Assembly: GCF_000020005.1 (NCBI RefSeq)
Contig: NC_010718.1
Coordinates: 687,001 to 751,000 of the forward strand
Length of the DNA stretch: 64,000 nt
Direction of reading: 5' to 3'
Source of the DNA: Natranaerobius thermophilus JW/NM-WN-LF
Lineage (GTDB): Bacteria; Bacillota; Natranaerobiia; Natranaerobiales; Natranaerobiaceae
Shown: piece by piece, positions 10,605 to 22,350 of the stretch
Layout: the number at the start of each line of letters is the position of its first letter
Position numbering within the stretch: position 1 is the stretch's first letter
Position numbers and translations under genes: made by a program
Notes under the pieces: generated by a model
Seen by the model: the letters and a program-made list of their open reading frames with translations, nothing else
Databases searched by the model: none
Told to the model about the DNA's origin: nothing

Positions 10605-11861
10605 TTAAGTCCCAACATCCCAGGAGTTTAGATACTCTTTTTGTTCTTCCGTTAGCTGTTCAAGTTCCATTCCCATACATTTAAGTTTTAACTCGGCTAT
10701 ACCTTCGTCTAAATGTTTTGGTACAGGATATACATCGTTTTTAAGGTTCGTTTTTTCATTAGCCAGGTATTCTACTGATAAGGCCTGGTTGGAAAAGCTC
10801 ATGTCCATAACGTCTGCCGGGTGTCCTTCTCCAGCAGATAGATTAACTAGCCTTCCTTCACCAATAACATATACTTTCCGACCATCTTTCAACTGGTATT
10901 CTTCAACATCAGGACGTACTGTTCGTTTTGTTTTAGACATTTTCTCCAGTGATTCTAAATTGATTTCAACATTGAAATGACCAGAATTCGATAGGATGCA
11001 GCCGTCTTTAATGTTTTCTAAATGATGTTTATCAACTACATTTTTATTACCAGTAGTAGTTACGACAAAGTCTGCATTCTTAGCAGCTTCCTCCATACTT
11101 TTAACTTCAAAGCCATCCAGTGAAGCTTCTAAAGCTCTCACAGGATCTACTTCCACTACTGTCACTCTAGCGCCAAGCCCACTAGCATCTTTGGCAACAC
11201 CACGGCCGCACCAGCCGTAGCCAACTACAACAAAACTGGTACCTGCCATTAAATAATTGGTGGCTCTCATGATACCATCTATAGTTGACTGGCCAGTACC
11301 GTAGCGGTTGTCAAACATGTGTTTTGTCATGGCATCGTTCACTGCGATCACTGGATACTGTAGATAATTGTCTCTGGCCATAGCTTTTAAACGAGTGACA
11401 CCAGTTGTAGTTTCTTCAGTACCTCCAGAAATGTTATCAAGCAGTTCTCTTCTTTCACTGTGTAATGTGTTGATTAAGTCTGCACCATCATCAACTGTGA
11501 TGTGTGGTTTAATATCTAAGACTTCTAAAATTCGATTGTAAAAGTCTTCTTTACCTTCACCTCGTTTGGCATGAGTTGGCACTTGATATACTTCATTTAA
11601 AGCAGCAACCACATCATCTTGAGTACTAAGAGGATTAGAACCACACAGTGCTACTTCAGCACCTCCATCTTTTAGAGTGATTAACAAATTAGCGGTTTTA
11701 GGTGTTACGTGCAAGCATGCACTAACCCTAACACCTTTTAGAGGTTGGTTTTCCTTCCAGCGTTCAGAAATACTCTGTAAGACAGGCATTTTGTTTCTTG
11801 CCCAAGTTATTTTGTTTTCACCTTGTTCAACTAAATTGTTACTAGTTTTTACTGTAGCCAT
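10605..11861 (-). CDS. ahcY: Adenosylhomocysteinase (S-adenosylhomocysteine hydrolase)
   Basis: 418 residues. It splits S-adenosylhomocysteine to homocysteine and adenosine, relieving product inhibition of the SAM-dependent methyltransferases nearby. The NAD-binding stretch GYGWCGRGVAKDASGLGARV and downstream VVEVDPVRALEAS are clear. SACLHVTPKTANL and SNSGHFNVEINL are characteristic of the family. AAGGAGGAG lies ahead of the ATG. Before the IS6-like insertion, this ribosome site overlapped the end of metK (see findings); the element now separates them by 1.2 kb. Transcription of ahcY must therefore come through or from the element, or from a cryptic promoter. Confidence 0.95.
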   Translation of the reverse strand: MATVKTSNNLVEQGENKITWARNKMPVLQSISERWKENQPLKGVRVSACLHVTPKTANLLITLKDGGAEVALCGSNPLSTQDDVVAALNEVYQVPTHAKRGEGKEDFYNRILEVLDIKPHITVDDGADLINTLHSERRELLDNISGGTEETTTGVTRLKAMARDNYLQYPVIAVNDAMTKHMFDNRYGTGQSTIDGIMRATNYLMAGTSFVVVGYGWCGRGVAKDASGLGARVTVVEVDPVRALEASLDGFEVKSMEEAAKNADFVVTTTGNKNVVDKHHLENIKDGCILSNSGHFNVEINLESLEKMSKTKRTVRPDVEEYQLKDGRKVYVIGEGRLVNLSAGEGHPADVMDMSFSNQALSVEYLANEKTNLKNDVYPVPKHLDEGIAELKLKCMGMELEQLTEEQKEYLNSWDVGT

Positions 11862-11915: not shown

Positions 11916-11992
11916 TGAATCAGTCTCCGTCCCGGAGTTAAGATAGTTTTAGACAGAAATCAAAACCCTCCGGGAGAAAGGAGACTGATTCA
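11916..11992 (+). promoter_or_regulatory. Long inverted repeat covering the transposase ribosome site and start
   Basis: TGAATCAGTCTCC at 11916 pairs with GGAGACTGATTCA ending at 11992, and CCCGGAG pairs with CTCCGGG inside it. The 3' arm contains the GAAAGGAGA ribosome site and the A of the transposase ATG. A transcript reading in from outside would fold and hide the start; one starting inside the element would not. This is a plausible guard against impinging transcription (inference). Confidence 0.65.
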
Positions 11993-13053
11993 TGACTAAA
12001 GTTGTATGCCCTAGATGCAATAACAACTGCTCTGACAAGTTTTATAAGTTTGGTTTTGATAATCATGGTCATCAAAAGTATCAATGTCAAGAATGTTTTA
12101 GTCAGTTTGCACCTAAGACACTTTCTAAAGGCGGGGATAAAAGAGGCCCTAATATGCCTCGCAAATATCCCTCTTGCCCTAAATGCGGGAAAGCTACATT
12201 TTTACATCACGACTATGAATTTTATTCTAATTTGAGGTGTTGTGACAAAAGCTGTAATCATTCTTTCTATGTCCCTAAACCTCAAAGTATTCCTGAACCT
12301 TCGCAACTTGATATTAACGGCAAAGTAGACTTCTCTAACATGAGACATCCTCTTCATACTATTATTCGAGCTCTTTACCTGTACTTCATTAATGGCAGCT
12401 CTACTAGAGGTGTCTCTCAATTCCTTCTTGATTGTGAAGGAATTAAAGTGTCTCATGTTACTATTGCTGACTGGACTAAAAAGTTTGCACCTCTTTTTCT
12501 TTATATCTCTAGATATCTTAAACCTATTGATCTAGACTCTTCTGATGAGTGGCATGTTGACGAAACTGTAATTAAAATTAAAGGCCAAAGATTCTACGCC
12601 TGGACTGTTATTGATGCTGAAACTAGATTTGTACTTGCATTTCATCTATCTCCTTACAGAGATAGCCAGGCTGCTTTTAAAGTGCTGAACTATGCTAAGA
12701 AACATTTTGGACGACCTCATAGTATCGTCACAGATAGATATTGGGCTTACAATGCTCCAATTAAAGTTCTGTTTCCAAACTCTAATCACATCAGAGTCAA
12801 GTCTTTTCAAGATGATATCTCTAATAACTTAATTGAATCTTTTTTTCAGATTTTCAAAAGCTGGGTTAAGCAACGCAGAGGATTTGCTTCTTTCCAGTCA
12901 GCCAACAAGTTGATTGCGGTATTTGTGTTTGCTTTTAACTTTGTTAGGACAAGCAATGTTTTGAATCAGTCTACTCCTGCTCAAGTTGCTGGGATTAATT
13001 ACTCTAATCGTAATAGGACTTTTTGGCTTTTACATAGTAATAATGCCGCTTGA
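11992..13053 (+). CDS. IS6/IS240-like DDE transposase with N-terminal zinc ribbons
   Basis: 353 residues. The first 100 residues carry two Cys4-type zinc-ribbon motifs (CPRCNNNC with CQEC, and CPKCGKA with CCDKSC). The catalytic DDE core follows: D in WHVDETVIK, D in SIVTDRYWAY and E in NNLIESFFQIF, with WVKQRRGF after the Glu. This arrangement matches IS6/IS240-like (DDE_Tnp_IS240) enzymes. The frame is intact with no stops, consistent with a recent insertion. Confidence 0.88.
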   Translation: MTKVVCPRCNNNCSDKFYKFGFDNHGHQKYQCQECFSQFAPKTLSKGGDKRGPNMPRKYPSCPKCGKATFLHHDYEFYSNLRCCDKSCNHSFYVPKPQSIPEPSQLDINGKVDFSNMRHPLHTIIRALYLYFINGSSTRGVSQFLLDCEGIKVSHVTIADWTKKFAPLFLYISRYLKPIDLDSSDEWHVDETVIKIKGQRFYAWTVIDAETRFVLAFHLSPYRDSQAAFKVLNYAKKHFGRPHSIVTDRYWAYNAPIKVLFPNSNHIRVKSFQDDISNNLIESFFQIFKSWVKQRRGFASFQSANKLIAVFVFAFNFVRTSNVLNQSTPAQVAGINYSNRNRTFWLLHSNNAA

Positions 13054-13096: not shown

Positions 13097-14302
13097 TCAT
13101 AACAACTTAACAGACTCTTTATTTTTTAAATCTTTGACCATATCCAGCTTTTCCCAAGGTAAATTTAAATCGTTTCTGCCAAAATGTCCGTATGCAGCAG
13201 TTTGTCTGTAAATAGGACGTTTTAACTCGAATCTATCTATAATGGCAGCTGGACGCCAGTCAAAGCTTTCTTGCAACCAATTGGATAGTTTTTCTTCAGA
13301 AACTTTTCCTGTTCCAAAGGTATTCACCCATAAGGATACCGGTTTGGCTACACCGATGGAATATGCAACTGATACTTCACATCTATTTGCTAATCCAGCA
13401 GCTACAACATTTTTGGCAGCATATCTAGCCGCATAAGCTGCTGAACGGTCTACCTTAGATGGATCCTTTCCGGAGAAGGCACCTCCTCCAATTCTGCCAA
13501 TACCACCATAGGTATCGACAACTATTTTCCTTCCTGTAACCCCTGCATCCCCTTGAGGGCCACCAACTACAAACCTTCCAGTAGGATTAATTAAAAACTC
13601 GGTTTCATCAGTTATTAAGTTTTCAGGGACATTTCTTTTGATAATTTTTTCAATCAAATCATTTTCGATAGTTTCATTATCAACTTCTTCTGGATGTTGA
13701 GCGGAAATTAAGATATTAGAAATTGCGCTAGGTTGATTGTTTTCATATTCCACAGTCACCTGTGTTTTTCCATCAGGACGTAGATAAGAAATCTCTCCAT
13801 TTCTTCTAGCTTCTGATAGCTTCCTAGATAGCCTGTGAGCAAGCATGATTGGCATAGGCATGAATTCTTCAGTTTCGTCAGTGGCATAACCATACATCAT
13901 GCCTTGATCACCAGCACCAACATCATTTTTATCTTCGCCATCCACACCCATTGCAATATCAGGAGATTGTTCATCAATTGAAACAGAAACTCCACATGTA
14001 TCGCAGTCGAATCCGTATTTAGCTTTGGTGTAACCTATATCTTTAAGAGTTTCTCTAACCACATTACTTATGTCCACATTAGCCTTAGTGGTGATTTCAC
14101 CGAATACATTCACTTGTCCAGTAGTGACAGCAGTCTCACAAGCAACTCTAGATTCTGGATCCTCCTCCAATAAGGCATCTAAGACTGCATCTGAAATTTG
14201 ATCACATATCTTATCTGGATGTCCCTCAGTCACCGATTCAGAAGTAATTAAATTCTTATTTTCTTCTTTGGCTTTAATTTCCGAAGTTTTTTCAACTGCC
14301 AA
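13097..14302 (-). CDS. metK: S-adenosylmethionine synthetase with IS-altered C terminus
   Basis: About 401 residues. It makes SAM from methionine and ATP. Family motifs are [19 protein letters not shown] near the N terminus, [12 protein letters not shown] and [22 protein letters not shown] at 14302 is chosen because AGGAGG lies eight bases before it; the GTG nine bases upstream sits inside that ribosome site. The last six codons (ESVKLL) and the stop come from the right end of the inserted IS6-like element. Removing the element would end the protein WKEEK instead, four bases before ahcY. The catalytic core is untouched. The promoter and a long leader lie upstream. Confidence 0.95.
13118..13125 (+). 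repeat. 8-bp target-site duplication, right copy
   Basis: TTTATTTT, identical to 11884-11891. It falls in the metK coding sequence (the last LKNK codons), and its end coincides with a codon boundary. Confidence 0.85.
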
Positions 14303-14523
14303 AAAATCCACCTCCTAGAATAAGTTTTTGTAACTGTTACTTTACAGGTGCCACTTTCAAGGTAACTACTTTCAGTAGTTAAAGTACTGCTAACCTAAAC
14401 TGATACTAATTTTTTATGAGATAGATTTAACAACGACGTTAGTCAGTAAAAATACTGAAAATAATAACGCAATAATTGAATAGTATCGACAACTTTCGCG
14501 AGGCCCCGCAACATTCAGTAGCA

Positions 14524-14807: not shown

Positions 14808-15650
14808 ATGACTACTAACGAGTACGCGCAAATAGCCAAAGATTATTACAACAGTACAGCTCACGAAATTTATAAAGAGTGCTGGGGAGGTGAAAATCAC
14901 CACTTAGGGATCTTTGATAATACAGATGATTTCTATCAAGCTGCCCAAAAAGCTAACGAAAACCTTGTTACAAAATTGCAAGTCAAAGAAGGAGATCATG
15001 TTCTAGATATAGGCAGTGGTTTTTGTGGTCTACCGCGTTATATAGTAAAGAATACCAATTGTGAAAAAGTAACAGCTTTAAATATTTCAGAAAAAGAAAA
15101 CGAATACGCCAGGCAAAAAAATAAACAAGAAAATCTTCACCATAAAATTGATGTAGTTGATGGGGACTTTAACAATATGCCTTTTCCAGATAAGAATTTT
15201 GATATTTTAGTTAGTCAGGATTCTATGTTACACAGTCCTAACAAAAAAGAACTATTGGAAGAATGCTTCAGGGTAATTAAACCAGGTGGAATGTTTGTAT
15301 TTTCCGATATTTTAAAACTTCCGGAACTAACTGAAGATGAAGCAAAGATTGTATATAATCGTATCAATGTTCCTCATTTGGCTACCTTTGACTTTTATGA
15401 GAAGGCCTTAATAGATGCGAATTTTAACGTAATTGATATTCAAGACCTGGGTAATATGAATCTAGCAAAGTCCTATCAATCTGTTTACGATAATTTAAAT
15501 GATAAGAAAAATTTTCTTATGAAAGATAAGAACATACCTCAAGACAGAATTGATATGACATTAAAAGGCCTGAAATATTGGGTAGAAAAGGCATCTGATA
15601 ATAAGTTGGGTTGGGGATTGTTTGTGAGTCAGCGTCCTAATAACCGGTAG
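14808..15650 (+). CDS. Sarcosine/dimethylglycine N-methyltransferase (glycine betaine synthesis)
   Basis: 280 residues. Class I SAM methyltransferase with motif I HVLDIGSGFCGLPRYIV at about 64-80, a motif IV-like DILVSQDSMLHS and the post-motif RVIKPGGMFVFSDIL. This pattern (SQDSxLHxxNK, VFSDIL) is that of the SDMT enzymes of halophiles, which carry sarcosine through dimethylglycine to betaine using two SAM. AAAGGAGG seven bases before the ATG. First gene of the plus-strand operon, with GSMT next; the pair makes the three-step route from glycine. The precise split of methylation steps between the two enzymes is known from related systems, not from this sequence. Confidence 0.88.
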   Translation: MTTNEYAQIAKDYYNSTAHEIYKECWGGENHHLGIFDNTDDFYQAAQKANENLVTKLQVKEGDHVLDIGSGFCGLPRYIVKNTNCEKVTALNISEKENEYARQKNKQENLHHKIDVVDGDFNNMPFPDKNFDILVSQDSMLHSPNKKELLEECFRVIKPGGMFVFSDILKLPELTEDEAKIVYNRINVPHLATFDFYEKALIDANFNVIDIQDLGNMNLAKSYQSVYDNLNDKKNFLMKDKNIPQDRIDMTLKGLKYWVEKASDNKLGWGLFVSQRPNNR

Positions 15651-15711
15651 AGTGAAGTAGAGTAAAAAGCTCATTTTAAGAATAAAAAATATTTAAAAGG
15701 GGGAGATTCAT

Positions 15712-16464
15712 ATCTCAACTGAAAATTACAAAGAAAAGTTTAAAGAGGAATATGCCAAGGGGTTGTCGGAAAGATGGGATGAAATAATTGACTGGGAAAA
15801 AAGAAGACAAAGTGAAGATAGTTTTTTTGAAAAACTATTGCATAATCACGGGGTAGAGAATGTGTTGGATATAGCCTGTGGCACAGGATTCCATTCAATT
15901 CATCTAGCAAAAGCTGGCTTTAATGTTAAAGCTGCAGATGGATCAGAAGCTATGTTGGCAAAAACGAAAGAGAATGCCAAGCTATACAATGTGGATTTTG
16001 AAGTTGAAAAGGCAGATTGGTTAAAACTTACCAATACAATTTCTGAAAAGTATGATGCGGTCATTTGTTTGGGGAATGCATTGACACATTTGTTCTATGA
16101 AGATTATTATCGTCGCGCTTTGGAACAAATTTATCAAGTTCTCAACAAAGGCGGCATTTTGGTAGCAGATCAAAGAAATTATGATGCAATCTTGGAAACG
16201 GGTTATAGTAGCAAACATAAGTATTATTACTGTGGAGATGAGGTGGAAGTTAAACCTATAATTATCGAAGACGATTTTGTTAGATTTGCTTACAAGTTTA
16301 GTGAAAATGAAAAATATTATCTGACACTACATCCTATCAGAATTGATAATCTAAGCCAGTATATTTTGGATGCCGGTTTTGAAAAAGTGGAAACTTATGG
16401 TGACTTCAAAAAAGATTATGATAAATACGATTCTGACTTCATAATTCAAGTAGCCCAAAAGTAA
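15712..16464 (+). CDS. Glycine/sarcosine N-methyltransferase with apparent AUC start
   Basis: About 251 residues. SAM motif I is NVLDIACGTGFHSIHLAKAG. The GSMT-specific strings AVICLGNALTHLF, DQRNYDAILETGY and YYYCGDEVEV are all present, matching characterised glycine/sarcosine methyltransferases of halophiles. It methylates glycine to sarcosine and dimethylglycine. In this frame there is no ATG, GTG or TTG until TTG 15763, which would lose the first 17 residues (STENYKEKFKEEYAKG) and has no properly spaced ribosome site. AAAAGGGGGAG ends six bases before ATC 15712. I therefore place the start at AUC; TTG 15763 is the fallback. Followed 40 bases later by the nucleoside kinase. Confidence 0.85.
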   Translation: MSTENYKEKFKEEYAKGLSERWDEIIDWEKRRQSEDSFFEKLLHNHGVENVLDIACGTGFHSIHLAKAGFNVKAADGSEAMLAKTKENAKLYNVDFEVEKADWLKLTNTISEKYDAVICLGNALTHLFYEDYYRRALEQIYQVLNKGGILVADQRNYDAILETGYSSKHKYYYCGDEVEVKPIIIEDDFVRFAYKFSENEKYYLTLHPIRIDNLSQYILDAGFEKVETYGDFKKDYDKYDSDFIIQVAQK

Positions 16465-16504: not shown

Positions 16505-17131
16505 ATGGGTCAAGTACCAATTGTAGTCGATGGTATGACGGGTTCGGGAAAAACTACCCTGGTGAATCATTTGGCAAATGAGTTAAATTTGGAAGTTATG
16601 CCGGAAGAATTTCGTGATCCCTATAATCTCTTGTACAGATTTGCCGATGATGTTAAATGGTGTTATCCCATGCAGTTAAACTTTTTGATGACCAGGTATA
16701 TACAGTATACGGTGGCATCTGAACATGAAAATTATATTCTGGATAGAAGTATTTATAGTGATCCGGTTTATGCAAAACTTTATTACAATATGGGTTATTT
16801 AAGTGAAAAACAGTACGACAATTACTTAAACTTTTATGATAGCCTGGAAGAAGATATCAAGGAACCAAAATGCATGATAATTTTAAATTGTTCCTTTGAT
16901 GAGATTATGCGTCGGATAGTTGATAGAGGCAGATCTGACGAGTTGAAATTATCCAAAGAAGGTTACTGGTGGCCATTATACCAAGCATATCAAGAACATG
17001 TTGATAAACTATTAACACAACAAGATCATATGTCAACAAAAGTGATTAGAATAGACACGGAAGATATTGACTTGGCCAAAAGAGATGAACAATTATTTGA
17101 TATTTTAAATCTAGCAGAAACGGCTATTTAA
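16505..17131 (+). CDS. Deoxynucleoside-kinase-family enzyme, candidate adenosine-salvage kinase
   Basis: 208 residues. P-loop GMTGSGKTTL at 10-19, the DRSIYSD substrate/Mg motif and a basic lid RIVDRGRSDEL place it in the deoxyadenosine/deoxyguanosine kinase family. It uses ATP to phosphorylate a nucleoside. Its place between the betaine methyltransferases and the methionine-cycle genes is unusual. Each methylation yields S-adenosylhomocysteine, which AhcY splits to homocysteine and adenosine. A kinase returning adenosine to AMP would complete the cycle and pull AhcY forward. That role is inference; the family usually prefers deoxynucleosides. GGGGGAG precedes the ATG. Confidence 0.82.
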   Translation: MGQVPIVVDGMTGSGKTTLVNHLANELNLEVMPEEFRDPYNLLYRFADDVKWCYPMQLNFLMTRYIQYTVASEHENYILDRSIYSDPVYAKLYYNMGYLSEKQYDNYLNFYDSLEEDIKEPKCMIILNCSFDEIMRRIVDRGRSDELKLSKEGYWWPLYQAYQEHVDKLLTQQDHMSTKVIRIDTEDIDLAKRDEQLFDILNLAETAI

Positions 17132-17182: not shown

Positions 17183-18352
17183 GTGAGTTTACCGGAATAT
17201 GTAGGACCATGTGCATTCGGAATCAAGATGGGAGTTGTCTTACCGGGCTCGGATTTAAAGAGTATGATTAAAAGTGAAATTATGAAGATTAACAAAGATG
17301 GGCTATTAGAAGACAATGATGCTCTGTGTGTGACAGAATCAATAGTTGCTAGGGCCCAAGAGAATTATATTACTACTGAGGAAATAGCTGAAGAAGTCAC
17401 CGATAAATTAAATCTAAAGCCTAATGATACTTTGGGAGTGTTATTTCCAATTTTGAGTCGTAACAGATTTTCGCTAATTCTTGAAGGACTTGCCAAAGCA
17501 GTTCCCCGGGGAAAAATTATTGTTCAGCTTTCTCATCCTGACGATGAAGTAGGAAATCAATTAATCCCTCCAGAAAAGTCTCAAGCACTTATAGATAAAG
17601 GATACAATGTAATCAAAGCAGAAGAATTGGAAGAAGATTGTATACATCCTATTACGAATGTTAACTATCTTAAGTTATACCGAGATATTATCACAGAGCA
17701 GGGAGCAGAAGCAGAGTTATTTGTTTCTAATGATTACCGTGTGATATTGGATTACCATCCTCAAGGTGTGTTATGTGCTGATATCCACACCAGGGAAGAA
17801 CATAGGAGTAAACTAGAATCCAAGGTAATTACTTGTACTCTTCAAGATTTGTTTAATGATAGCAGCAAGGAATCTTGGTCAGAATGGGGATTATTAGGCA
17901 GCAATATGTCTTCGGATAACAAATTAAAACTTGCACCTTACAATGCAGATGAATTTGCCTGTGAACTACAAAAAGAAATTTTAGATGCAACCGGCAAAAA
18001 AATCGAAGTAATTATTGGAGGAGATGGTGCATACAAAGATCCTAGTAGTGGTATTTACGAGCTGGCCGATCCTAAACCGGCATTTGGAACTACTCCTGGA
18101 TTAAGACAACATATGAGAGAAGGAGTAAAATATAAATATCTCATCGACATGTATCATAATCAAGGGAAATCAGAAAAAGAGATCCAAGAAATTATTGCTA
18201 AAGAATCTGAAAAGAAAAAAGGTAAAAATCACGAGATAGAAACTGAAGGGACAACACCCAGGAAAATAGAAGACATCCTAGCAAGCCTGGCCGATTTGGT
18301 CAGTGGTTCAGCAGATGCCGGAACACCTGTTATTCTAATCAAAAGTATTTAA
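17183..18352 (+). CDS. CofE-like (coenzyme F420-0 gamma-glutamyl ligase family) protein
   Basis: 389 residues. The N-terminal two thirds resemble the CofE/F420-0:L-glutamate ligase superfamily (ALCVTESIVARAQ, LSRNRFSLILEGLAKA, IIGGDGAYKDPSSGIYEL). In that superfamily a carboxylate is activated with GTP and joined to glutamate. The C-terminal 70 residues are charged and lysine/glutamate rich. No other F420 genes (cofC, cofD, cofGH) are visible. Here it sits in a one-carbon/methyl-cycle operon, so glutamylation of another molecule, for example a folate, is imaginable but unproven. GTG start with AAGGAGG. A strong terminator follows, so it ends the first transcript of the island. Confidence 0.7.
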   Translation: MSLPEYVGPCAFGIKMGVVLPGSDLKSMIKSEIMKINKDGLLEDNDALCVTESIVARAQENYITTEEIAEEVTDKLNLKPNDTLGVLFPILSRNRFSLILEGLAKAVPRGKIIVQLSHPDDEVGNQLIPPEKSQALIDKGYNVIKAEELEEDCIHPITNVNYLKLYRDIITEQGAEAELFVSNDYRVILDYHPQGVLCADIHTREEHRSKLESKVITCTLQDLFNDSSKESWSEWGLLGSNMSSDNKLKLAPYNADEFACELQKEILDATGKKIEVIIGGDGAYKDPSSGIYELADPKPAFGTTPGLRQHMREGVKYKYLIDMYHNQGKSEKEIQEIIAKESEKKKGKNHEIETEGTTPRKIEDILASLADLVSGSADAGTPVILIKSI

Positions 18353-18353
18353 A

Positions 18354-18383
18354 AACCTCCGGCCGGCTTGGCCGGAGGTTTTT
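18354..18383 (+). terminator. Strong rho-independent terminator
   Basis: An 11-bp GC-rich stem (AACCTCCGGCC/GGCCGGAGGTT), 5-base loop and T-run directly after the CofE-like gene. It separates the betaine methyltransferase half of the island from the metF/metH half. A TATAAT at 18398-18403 downstream may belong to a new promoter, but no good -35 is seen. Confidence 0.92.
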
Positions 18384-18441
18384 ACAAATGGTGTTACTAT
18401 AATTTCGAGATTAAACAAATAATAAAAAGGAGCTGTCCCAA

Positions 18442-19086
18442 TTGATTCAGATTAGCGATAAAGCTAAAATAGTTCCATTATATTCTGCAGTAATTAGGAG
18501 ATTTAAAGCCTTATCTCATAAGTATGATGTCAGTTCTGAAATGGATATTTTTTATCAACAAAAGTTTCTAGATGAATTTTTTTCCTGGCAAAAAGAATGT
18601 TTAAATTACGCAGATCCAAGTCTAGAGCTAAGAATCTTTGAAGCTGATAAACTGCCTAAAATCATTACCAGTAATTACGGGTATAATAAATTTGTTGTTT
18701 TTGCTACAACATTGGGGTTGCAAGCAGATCAACTTATTAATAAGAGTGCACAAACCGGTGAAGTATTTAAAAGTTATTTTATTGACTCCTGGTATTCGGA
18801 GAGTGTGGAAATCATTAACAGGCATGTGGAGAAATTAGTAAATACTCACTTAGATAAATGTGGTCGGAGGTTTTCTCCAGGCTTTAAGGATATTGACATT
18901 ACTGTTAATTATCAGCTGGGAAAAATGGCAAATTTCACTAATATAACCGTTAATGAAAATAATGGCATTTTAAAGCCAAGAAAAAGTACTATTTGTCTAG
19001 TCGGTTTTAATGATATAGCAGTCAAGAATACCAAAAAGGGAAGGTGGTTTTTGTATGAAGATATCCGAAATTTTTTCGCAAAGTAA
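18442..19086 (+). CDS. Stand-alone methionine synthase reactivation (B12-dependent MetH activation) domain
   Basis: 214 residues. The sequence CGRRFSPGFKDIDITVNYQLGK followed by TVNENNGILKPRKSTICLVGF (split here by 10 residues) matches the C-terminal activation domain of cobalamin-dependent methionine synthase, which binds SAM and remethylates oxidised cob(II)alamin. The MetH encoded 900 bases later lacks exactly this domain, so the enzyme is split into two polypeptides, as in Thermotoga. TTG start with AAGGAG eight bases ahead. Its 3' end overlaps the start of metF by 32 bases, so translation is probably coupled. Confidence 0.82.
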   Translation: MIQISDKAKIVPLYSAVIRRFKALSHKYDVSSEMDIFYQQKFLDEFFSWQKECLNYADPSLELRIFEADKLPKIITSNYGYNKFVVFATTLGLQADQLINKSAQTGEVFKSYFIDSWYSESVEIINRHVEKLVNTHLDKCGRRFSPGFKDIDITVNYQLGKMANFTNITVNENNGILKPRKSTICLVGFNDIAVKNTKKGRWFLYEDIRNFFAK

Positions 19087-19972
19087 CGGACCTGTTGTCT
19101 CCTTTGAGATATTTCCGCCCAAAAGGAAAAAAAATCAATCAAAAGAGGATTTTGATTCTTTATTAAAAACAATTGATAATTTAGCTCGGTTAAAACCTGA
19201 TTTTATAAGTGTGACTTACGGAGCTGGCGGTACCAATAGTGATGGTAGCTTAGAAATTTCCGAATACGTTAAAAACAAAGGGATTACGTCTTTACCTCAC
19301 TTTACATCCATCGGTTATCCCGTTGAAGAGATTAATTCGTATTTAGGTACAATTTACAACAAGGGTTTTGAAAATATTTTGGCTTTAAGAGGAGATCTGC
19401 CGAAAAGTCCTTCAAAAGCAGACTTGGTTTGGAGAGATTTTTTACATGCAACTGATTTGATCAAGGTTATCTCAAGGGATTTTCCGAATTTCTGCATAGG
19501 GGGAGCCGCTTACCCCGAAGGTCATCAAGAATCTAGTTATGCAGGGCAGGATATCGAGATTATGAAAATCAAAGAAAAAATGGGTGTAAAGTTTTTCTTA
19601 ACCCAACTGTTTTTCAATAACGATAATTTCTTTAAATTTATGGAAAATGTCAGGAATAATGGGGTGGAATCTCCAGTTTCTGCAGGTGTCATGCCTTTGA
19701 TTAGTCCTAAATACGTGGACAAAATCATTGAATTATCAGGTGTAAAATTACCAAAAGAATTAGAAAATGCTTTGGAAAATTACAGGGATGATGAAGTAGA
19801 ATTTAGAAAAAGATCCTTAGATTATTGTGTTAGACAGGTGAACGATTTATTTGAAAGAGGTGTGGATGGAGTGCATCTCTATACGATGAATCGCCATGAA
19901 GCTGTTGAAGAAATTCTTGACCAAGTTGATTCAAATGTAAACAGGGAGGTGGAACTATCAAAACAGACTTGA
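19055..19972 (+). CDS. metF: Methylenetetrahydrofolate reductase
   Basis: 305 residues. Reduces 5,10-methylene-tetrahydrofolate to 5-methyl-tetrahydrofolate, the methyl donor for MetH. Family motifs are VVSFEIFPPKRKKNQ, FISVTYGAGGTNSDGSLEIS, LALRGDLP and KFFLTQLFFNNDNFFKF, with the C-terminal GVHLYTMNR. The length is normal for a flavin-containing bacterial MetF. The ATG start overlaps the reactivation-domain gene, and its stop overlaps the start of metH. Confidence 0.94.
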   Translation: MKISEIFSQSNGPVVSFEIFPPKRKKNQSKEDFDSLLKTIDNLARLKPDFISVTYGAGGTNSDGSLEISEYVKNKGITSLPHFTSIGYPVEEINSYLGTIYNKGFENILALRGDLPKSPSKADLVWRDFLHATDLIKVISRDFPNFCIGGAAYPEGHQESSYAGQDIEIMKIKEKMGVKFFLTQLFFNNDNFFKFMENVRNNGVESPVSAGVMPLISPKYVDKIIELSGVKLPKELENALENYRDDEVEFRKRSLDYCVRQVNDLFERGVDGVHLYTMNRHEAVEEILDQVDSNVNREVELSKQT

Positions 19973-22350
19973 AACTAAAAGATCAACTAGTTAATAAAAC
20001 TTTGGAGAAGTTACTCTTTCTCGATGGCTCCTATGGTACAGAACTACAAAGAAGAGGTTTTGAAGGCAATGCGGAAATTTTAAATTTACAAGATCAGGAT
20101 TTGGTAAAAAATGTGCATTATGATTATGCCTCAGCTGGTGCTGATTTAATTTTAACAAACACTTTTGGTGGTAATAGATTAAAATTGAAAGATGCCGGAT
20201 ATGAGGATAAAGTTGCAGAAATTAATAGCAGAGGTGTTGAGCTGGCCAAGGAGTCAGCTGAAAATATTGATAGAGATGTTTTGGTAGTAGGTGATATATC
20301 ATCTACCGGTCGATTTATCGAGCCCGTAGGTGATTTGTCCTTTACAAAAGCTCAACAAGTATTCCAGGAACAAGGTCGTTATTTGATAGAAAGTGGAGTT
20401 GATCTAATAAAAATTGAAACAATGACGGATATTAAAGAGCTAAAAGCTGCTATATTAGGGATACGTTCAATAGATGAGGATTTACCCCTGATAGTTAGTA
20501 TGAGTTTTGAACAAGATGGTAAAACAATTACTGGTACATCTGTACCATCTTACGTCACTTTAATGAATGATCTACCTGTGGATATTATTGGTTTGAACTG
20601 TGGAGTCAAATCGAAAGATATGTTGGATCTTGTCAAACAGGCTTCTTACTATTCACTCAAACCACTTAGCATTTCTCCTAATGCAGGAGATCCGGACTTA
20701 GATCTGAGTTATAGTGAAGATCCTCAAGAATTTTCATTTTATCTTGATGCCATTTCTGATTTAGATATGGTAGCTATTGTAGGAGGGTGTTGTGGTACCA
20801 CACCCGAATATGTTGACAATTATTGTTCTAAATTAAAAGGCAAGGAAAAGTCCCGCAAGTTATTGCAACAATCTCAAATCCACAAAGATATACCAACTTT
20901 GATATCATCAAGAACTTATCAACTTGATTTAGACAATAATTTTGTCAAAATTGGTGAACGAATTAATCCAGCCTCCAAGAAAAACTTTCAAGAAGAAATT
21001 AATAATAAAGATTTTTCAAGGATTTATGATGAAGCCTTTAGCCAGATGAATGAAGGTAGTGATGTGATTGATCTCAATTTAGGTGTGGAAGAGGACGTGG
21101 AACTAGAAGATGTGGAGACAATTGTCAACGGCTTGGATTCCCTTGGATGTAAACCATTATCTTTGGATATTCAGTCATCAGTACTCTTGGAAAAGGCACT
21201 ACAGGTTTATCCGGGTAGGCCGATAATTAATTCGTCATCCTGTGACAAAGAAGACTTGGATAATGCCATTGACTTAATGAAAAAATACGGCGGAGTTTTA
21301 GTCTTGCTTGCTATGTCAGGTACTCCTAAAAAAACAATTCAAAAGCGATTGGATGAATTGAAATATGGCCTAGAATATTTAGAATCAAAAGGTATTGATG
21401 AAAGCAGGATTATGGTAGATCCCTTGGTTTTACCGGTGGGTACTGAACATGACCCAAAAACTACTTTGGAGCTGATCAAAATTATTTCCCAGGAAATGGA
21501 GTGCAAGACAACTCTAGGCTTATCAAATTTAAGTCATGGATTGCCCGATAGACCCCAACTGAACTCTGCCTTTGTTTCCATGGCAATTTATAATGGATTA
21601 GACAGCGCTATTATGGATACTTCAGATCAACTGGTAACCCAGACTGTGGAAAAATCACTGATGTTAATGGGTAAAGAAACAATTTGGGAAGATGTAGCAA
21701 TCGATACTGAAGATCAGATGGTAAAAGACATTTTGACAGGCAATTCCGACAAAGTATTAACACAGGTGAAATCTTATTTAAAGGATATGACTCCTTTGGA
21801 AGTGAGTCAGCAACTGCTGGGAAAAGCTATGAAAGAGATTGGTGATTTATACAACGATAAAAGTATCTACTTACCCCAGTTGTTATTGTCAGCAGAAACA
21901 GTGCAACCTTCCTTTGACTACTTAAATAAACTTGTAGGGGAGCACCAAGAAGATAGTAAAGGAAAAATTATGTTAGCTACCGTGGAAGGTGATGTACATG
22001 ACATAGGCAAAAAAATTGTAGGAACTATATTGAAAAGCGGAGGATTTGAGATATATGACTTAGGTGTTGATCTTCCAGCTAATGAAATTGTAGCAGAAGT
22101 CAAAGATATCAAACCAGATATCCTGGGTTTATCGGCCATGATGACTAGCACAATTAAAAAAATTGCAGAAGTCACAGAACAGCTTCAAGCTGAAGGAATT
22201 GATGTAAAGGTGATCGGAGGAGGCGCTTCTCTAAATCCTGAACTAGCCCAAAAGTTTGGTTGTCATGCTTATGCCAAGGATGCACATGAAGCGTTAACCA
22301 AATGTGAACAATTAATGACTGGTGAAAAAGCTTTGTCTAATGAGAGGTGA
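19957..22350 (+). CDS. metH: Cobalamin-dependent methionine synthase lacking the reactivation domain; apparent AUC start
   Basis: About 797 residues. Domain 1 (1-300) is the zinc homocysteine-binding barrel: FLDGSYGTELQRRG, GLNCGVKS and VGGCCGTTPEY give the three Cys ligands. Domain 2 (about 310-580) is the methyltetrahydrofolate barrel (KIGERINPASKKNF, DLNLGVEED). Domain 3 (about 600-790) is the B12 cap and Rossmann domain with EGDVHDIGKKIVG, whose His is the cobalt ligand motif DxHxxG. The activation domain is encoded separately upstream. GGGAGG at 19944-19949 points to ATC 19957 (7-base spacing); the only usual codon, TTG 19969, is 19 bases away. It overlaps metF and has the island's second apparent AUC start. 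Confidence 0.92.
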   Translation: MKTDLKLKDQLVNKTLEKLLFLDGSYGTELQRRGFEGNAEILNLQDQDLVKNVHYDYASAGADLILTNTFGGNRLKLKDAGYEDKVAEINSRGVELAKESAENIDRDVLVVGDISSTGRFIEPVGDLSFTKAQQVFQEQGRYLIESGVDLIKIETMTDIKELKAAILGIRSIDEDLPLIVSMSFEQDGKTITGTSVPSYVTLMNDLPVDIIGLNCGVKSKDMLDLVKQASYYSLKPLSISPNAGDPDLDLSYSEDPQEFSFYLDAISDLDMVAIVGGCCGTTPEYVDNYCSKLKGKEKSRKLLQQSQIHKDIPTLISSRTYQLDLDNNFVKIGERINPASKKNFQEEINNKDFSRIYDEAFSQMNEGSDVIDLNLGVEEDVELEDVETIVNGLDSLGCKPLSLDIQSSVLLEKALQVYPGRPIINSSSCDKEDLDNAIDLMKKYGGVLVLLAMSGTPKKTIQKRLDELKYGLEYLESKGIDESRIMVDPLVLPVGTEHDPKTTLELIKIISQEMECKTTLGLSNLSHGLPDRPQLNSAFVSMAIYNGLDSAIMDTSDQLVTQTVEKSLMLMGKETIWEDVAIDTEDQMVKDILTGNSDKVLTQVKSYLKDMTPLEVSQQLLGKAMKEIGDLYNDKSIYLPQLLLSAETVQPSFDYLNKLVGEHQEDSKGKIMLATVEGDVHDIGKKIVGTILKSGGFEIYDLGVDLPANEIVAEVKDIKPDILGLSAMMTSTIKKIAEVTEQLQAEGIDVKVIGGGASLNPELAQKFGCHAYAKDAHEALTKCEQLMTGEKALSNER

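Follow-up and report, generated by a model that had tools for sequence, protein, structure and literature searches.

When glycine is methylated to betaine, three SAH are formed for each molecule, and AhcY converts SAH to homocysteine and adenosine in a reaction whose equilibrium favours SAH, so that removal of the products is needed. Elsewhere, the adenosine of the methyl cycle is phosphorylated by an unrelated kinase. The PfkB-family adenosine kinase has its reaction and its place in the methyl cycle in common with what we propose here for a deoxynucleoside kinase (dNK), although the PfkB fold is unrelated. In Methanohalophilus, a SAMS-SAHH-GSMT-SDMT cluster encodes the betaine methyltransferases together with MetK and AhcY (PMC3176816); the locus described below resembles it in these genes, and an adenosine kinase is not mentioned in the text of that paper. 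Characterised dNKs favour deoxynucleosides about 100-fold, and an ordinary dAK acts on adenosine with a KM of 27 μM and a kcat/KM of 4.6e4 (PMC11662666). In the Giardia dAK structure, Gln84 and Asp114 touch adenine, and the poor use of adenosine was put down, by modelling, to a possible clash of the 2′-OH with Tyr73 (PMC11662666). AbmG, a kinase of the biosynthesis of the antibiotic albomycin (PMC9032320), was solved with cytidine (8j5f) and provides a precedent for a ribonucleoside in the dNK fold, although its ligand is a pyrimidine. The literature searched yielded neither a paper on the gene studied here nor a description of a dNK as the adenosine kinase of the methyl cycle; the initial annotation's suggestion that such a role would be new holds to that extent, whereas ribonucleoside binding by the fold itself has a precedent in AbmG.

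The window analysed is a stretch of 64,000 nucleotides from Natranaerobius thermophilus, and the candidate AhcY-coupled adenosine kinase, predicted from its profile score, fold match and genomic linkage, lies at 16505–17131 on the + strand. The reading frame is intact and stop-free (208 aa), unlike the reverse frame, which is interrupted by many stops, and is the sole PF01712 match in the 3.19-Mb genome, scoring 126 bits against the Pfam cut-off of 27, and there is no match to the PfkB profile. The P-loop G10-MTGSGKT17 (16532–16555), E34 (16604–16606), which by alignment corresponds to the catalytic Glu in dNKs, the D80-R81-S82 motif with D86 in the base-contact region (16742–16762) and the lid R141-G-R143 with E146 (16925–16942) are all present and conserved among relatives, E34 and the lid being invariant in 15 dNKs. 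An AF2 model built from 16 sequences (pLDDT 86, pTM 0.83) matches the M. mycoides dAK 2jaq (Z 22.1, rmsd 2.1 over 186 residues), AbmG with cytidine (Z 22.0) and the Giardia dAK 8puu (Z 21.5), at identities of about 28% to the two dAKs and about 20% to AbmG. The protein is thus a member of the dNK family by Pfam score, motifs and predicted fold, which bears out an assignment originally made from the P-loop, DRS and lid motifs alone.

With the M. mycoides and Giardia dAKs the protein has in common the fold, P-loop, DRS-type motif and lid as well as the Gln/Arg/Asp contacts to the base. Q57 (16673–16675), R81 and D86 form the same set as in the eight Dck-type rows of the alignment, while the Dgk-type rows carry Glu/Tyr/Asn; we take these rows, from knowledge of paired Bacillus genes, to be deoxyadenosine/deoxycytidine and deoxyguanosine kinases, respectively. 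In the pairwise alignment, Giardia Gln84 and Asp114 map to Q57 and D86. The base-contact residues are therefore, by alignment, of the adenine/cytosine (Dck, amino-base) type, and in view of the Q/R/D signature we discounted a guanine-type specificity.

Unlike the two dAKs, the protein has no Tyr at the gate, the site of the ribonucleoside-hindering Tyr in other dNKs, which corresponds to F46-A47 (16640–16645; gate role from PMC11662666). The segment following the helix is one residue shorter in this protein and its closest relatives (the clade described below) than in sister dNKs, and the register there is ambiguous, with the pLDDT of the model falling to about 65. Profile alignments place mostly Ala or Ser of the clade in the Tyr column, with F/Y46 as a neighbouring aromatic, whereas it is F46 that falls in this column in ungapped pairwise or viral-set alignments; in both registers (A47 or F46) the protein studied here lacks a Tyr facing the sugar 2′ position. 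The relative at locus L035 has a Tyr at the gate, but solely in the ungapped register; Phe is found at this site in several sister dNKs. Loss of the gate Tyr is predicted to open the kinase to ribonucleosides. Family, fold and base signature would equally fit an ordinary deoxyadenosine/deoxycytidine salvage kinase that is in the operon by chance and uses adenosine as a side activity, and all dNK-type salvage in this genome rests on this one protein; the altered gate position speaks against such a kinase, as does the genomic linkage described below, and we consider it rather unlikely.

The kinase gene is the third of four in a unit with the order SDMT-GSMT-dNK-CofE-like, in which the listed reading frames are separated by 112, 40 and 51 bp, so that the dNK starts 40 bp after GSMT and ends 51 bp before the CofE-like gene; its ATG is preceded by a GGGGGAG ribosome-binding site. 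No strong terminator lies between SDMT and the CofE-like gene, and the unit is closed by a strong, bidirectional terminator-like hairpin of 15 pairs (18350–18384). These features support the operon claimed earlier, which the gene shares with two putative betaine methyltransferases. The SDMT-like methyltransferase (14808–15650, +) and GSMT (15763–16464, +) have SDMT (NF041675) and GSMT (NF051855) as their best NCBIfam matches, with 192 and 288 bits, which are below the curated cut-offs of 550 and 350. Upstream of 15763 the GSMT frame is open to I-H-I-S-T-E-N-Y, after a GGGGGAG motif (window 15700–15763); the true start is probably at about 15706–15712 and may be ATC or ATT instead of the TTG at 15763. 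The last gene (17183–18352, +) encodes a CofE-like (F420_ligase) protein with a PF01996 score of 152 bits, NCBIfam scores below their cut-offs and no solved relative found by phmmer.

Upstream, on the − strand, are AhcY (10605–11861; TIGR00936, 617 bits, above cut-off), the source of adenosine, 4.6 kb from the dNK, and MetK (13097–14311; TIGR01034, 593 bits, above cut-off), which would consume ATP rebuilt from AMP. Lying on the opposite strand, both are cluster neighbours of the kinase rather than members of its operon. An OpuAC-type binding protein is also encoded on the − strand, and a transposase-like frame (identified by eye) lies between AhcY and MetK at window 11992–13053. Downstream, on the + strand, a MetF-like protein (19055–19972; PF02219, 244 bits) would supply methyl groups, and a MetH-like methionine synthase of 793 aa (19969–22350; TIGR02082, 439 bits, under cut-off) would be the homocysteine sink. 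The 214-aa frame preceding them (window 18442–19086) matches nothing in Pfam or NCBIfam and is possibly a split-off MetH reactivation domain. No Rfam RNA was found at 8–26 kb of the window. A second AhcY copy, 82% identical, is encoded outside the betaine cluster (G000:C2:1160857–1162104, L086); in the AhcY tree, rows L061 and L075 were disregarded owing to wrong reading frames.

Relatives were sought in two overlapping sets of genomes, one comprising 299 from the phylum and the other 397; the closest dNKs in them were those of G052 (67% identity) and G046 (55%), the next being at most 44% identical; a scan of genome contigs added L045, a MAG labelled Syntrophomonadaceae whose dNK is 72–73% identical. 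Together with the window dNK these form one clade (support 100/99), for which only four members were found, two of them from one order. No relative belonging to the clade was found in viral contigs. AhcY and/or SDMT/GSMT stand beside the dNK in all four. L045 has SDMT-GSMT-dNK followed by a TRAP-type binding protein; in G052 (locus L035), which lacks GSMT, the unit SDMT-dNK-amidohydrolase-CofE-like faces MetK-AhcY; and in G046 (locus L036) the dNK is divergent from an adjoining AhcY, with no such methyltransferases beside it. Eleven genomes match both AhcY and a more distant dNK (at most 44% identity) strongly; among the places listed for them, none brings the two genes close together, each pair being far apart or split between contigs. 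AhcY is missing from the eight 12–20 kb neighbourhoods of more distant dNKs that were examined (L037–L044). For the whole-genome clade members the contrast is 3/3 against 0/11 (Fisher, 1/364), a value that ignores shared ancestry and includes two clade members of one order, which are hence not independent. The conserved linkage argues against an ordinary salvage kinase, as does G005, a genome of the same family in which AhcY is present and dNK and GSMT are missing together.

One check suggested at the outset was whether homologues co-occur with GSMT and SDMT. Both are present in L045, SDMT alone in G052 and neither beside the G046 dNK; betaine co-occurrence as the sole rule is ruled out by G046, which has AhcY and no betaine genes there, and by G052. 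Since the G046 dNK adjoins AhcY without betaine genes, the link is to the AhcY methyl cycle rather than to betaine as such, and the role in betaine synthesis originally proposed is better stated as a partnership with AhcY. By eye, the more distant dNKs of L040–L042 follow PrkA-, YhbH- and SpoVR-like sporulation genes. Also by eye, a GIGSLPF motif was seen close to the N terminus of two short proteins, each of about 358 aa, that are encoded near dNK and AhcY in L035 (15625–16704) and L036 (12354–13430); only the L035 protein has a weak methionine-synthase match. The CofE-like gene is kept in the dNK unit of both the window and G052, as would be expected if the kinase served another nucleoside in an unrecognised pathway, for example one making a glutamylated nucleotide. 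We regard such a pathway as very improbable: no CofE-like gene adjoins the G046 dNK, whose partner is AhcY, and the downstream flank in L045 holds the TRAP-type binding protein instead.

A separate adenosine kinase or nucleosidase might have done the job. No adenosine kinase is found among the genome's PfkB proteins, which comprise ThiD, a ribokinase and a pyridoxamine kinase; ADA is absent from the genome; and as the only PNP_UDP_1 protein is the inosine/guanosine-specific PunA, MtnN and DeoD were not found. These gaps argue for the dNK as the adenosine kinase. However, the genome encodes a 5′-deoxyadenosine deaminase (NF005557, 713 bits against a cut-off of 522), a second amidohydrolase, for which an MTA/SAH deaminase is the best-matching protein of solved structure, and a LACC1/YlmD protein; these make deamination a live rival route, and the kinase may share the removal of adenosine with them. 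Adenosine or SAH could thus be deaminated by MtaD/DadD-type amidohydrolases to inosine, the substrate of PunA, with the kinase a backup or an inosine-phosphorylating enzyme, and an amidohydrolase of the MTA/SAH/5′-deoxyadenosine deaminase type indeed sits in the G052 dNK operon. In the window genome, however, both deaminases are far from the betaine cluster, the base signature is of the Dck and not the Dgk (6-oxopurine) type, and rebuilding ATP after deamination takes extra steps. We consider this route unlikely.

Together, these observations lead us to favour, as somewhat likelier to hold than to fail, a dNK-fold kinase recruited as an AhcY-coupled adenosine kinase. The neighbouring AhcY and methyltransferase genes in the clade, the Dck-type signature, the lost gate Tyr, the use of adenosine by dAKs and the AbmG precedent all count toward it; the deoxynucleoside preference of characterised dNKs, the encoded deaminases, the ambiguous gate register and the small clade count against it. 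We infer that the kinase would act mainly on adenosine and would outcompete deamination. MetH would take away homocysteine and the dNK would take away adenosine as AMP, pulling AhcY forward, and the AMP would be returned to ATP to feed MetK. As G046 couples the kinase with AhcY alone, betaine synthesis would be the high-flux case of this role. A stronger proposal, which we put forward tentatively and which may well claim too much, is that the clade comprises true ribonucleoside-preferring adenosine kinases that arose via loss of the gate Tyr and replace the PfkB enzyme in the AhcY cycle of certain Bacillota that are anaerobic and at least partly haloalkaliphilic. If the AhcY-coupled role is correct, it would represent a non-orthologous replacement of adenosine kinase within a central cycle, would explain the forward pull on a very high flux of betaine methylation in an extreme halophile, and would offer a simple natural test of what makes the dNK fold accept ribose.
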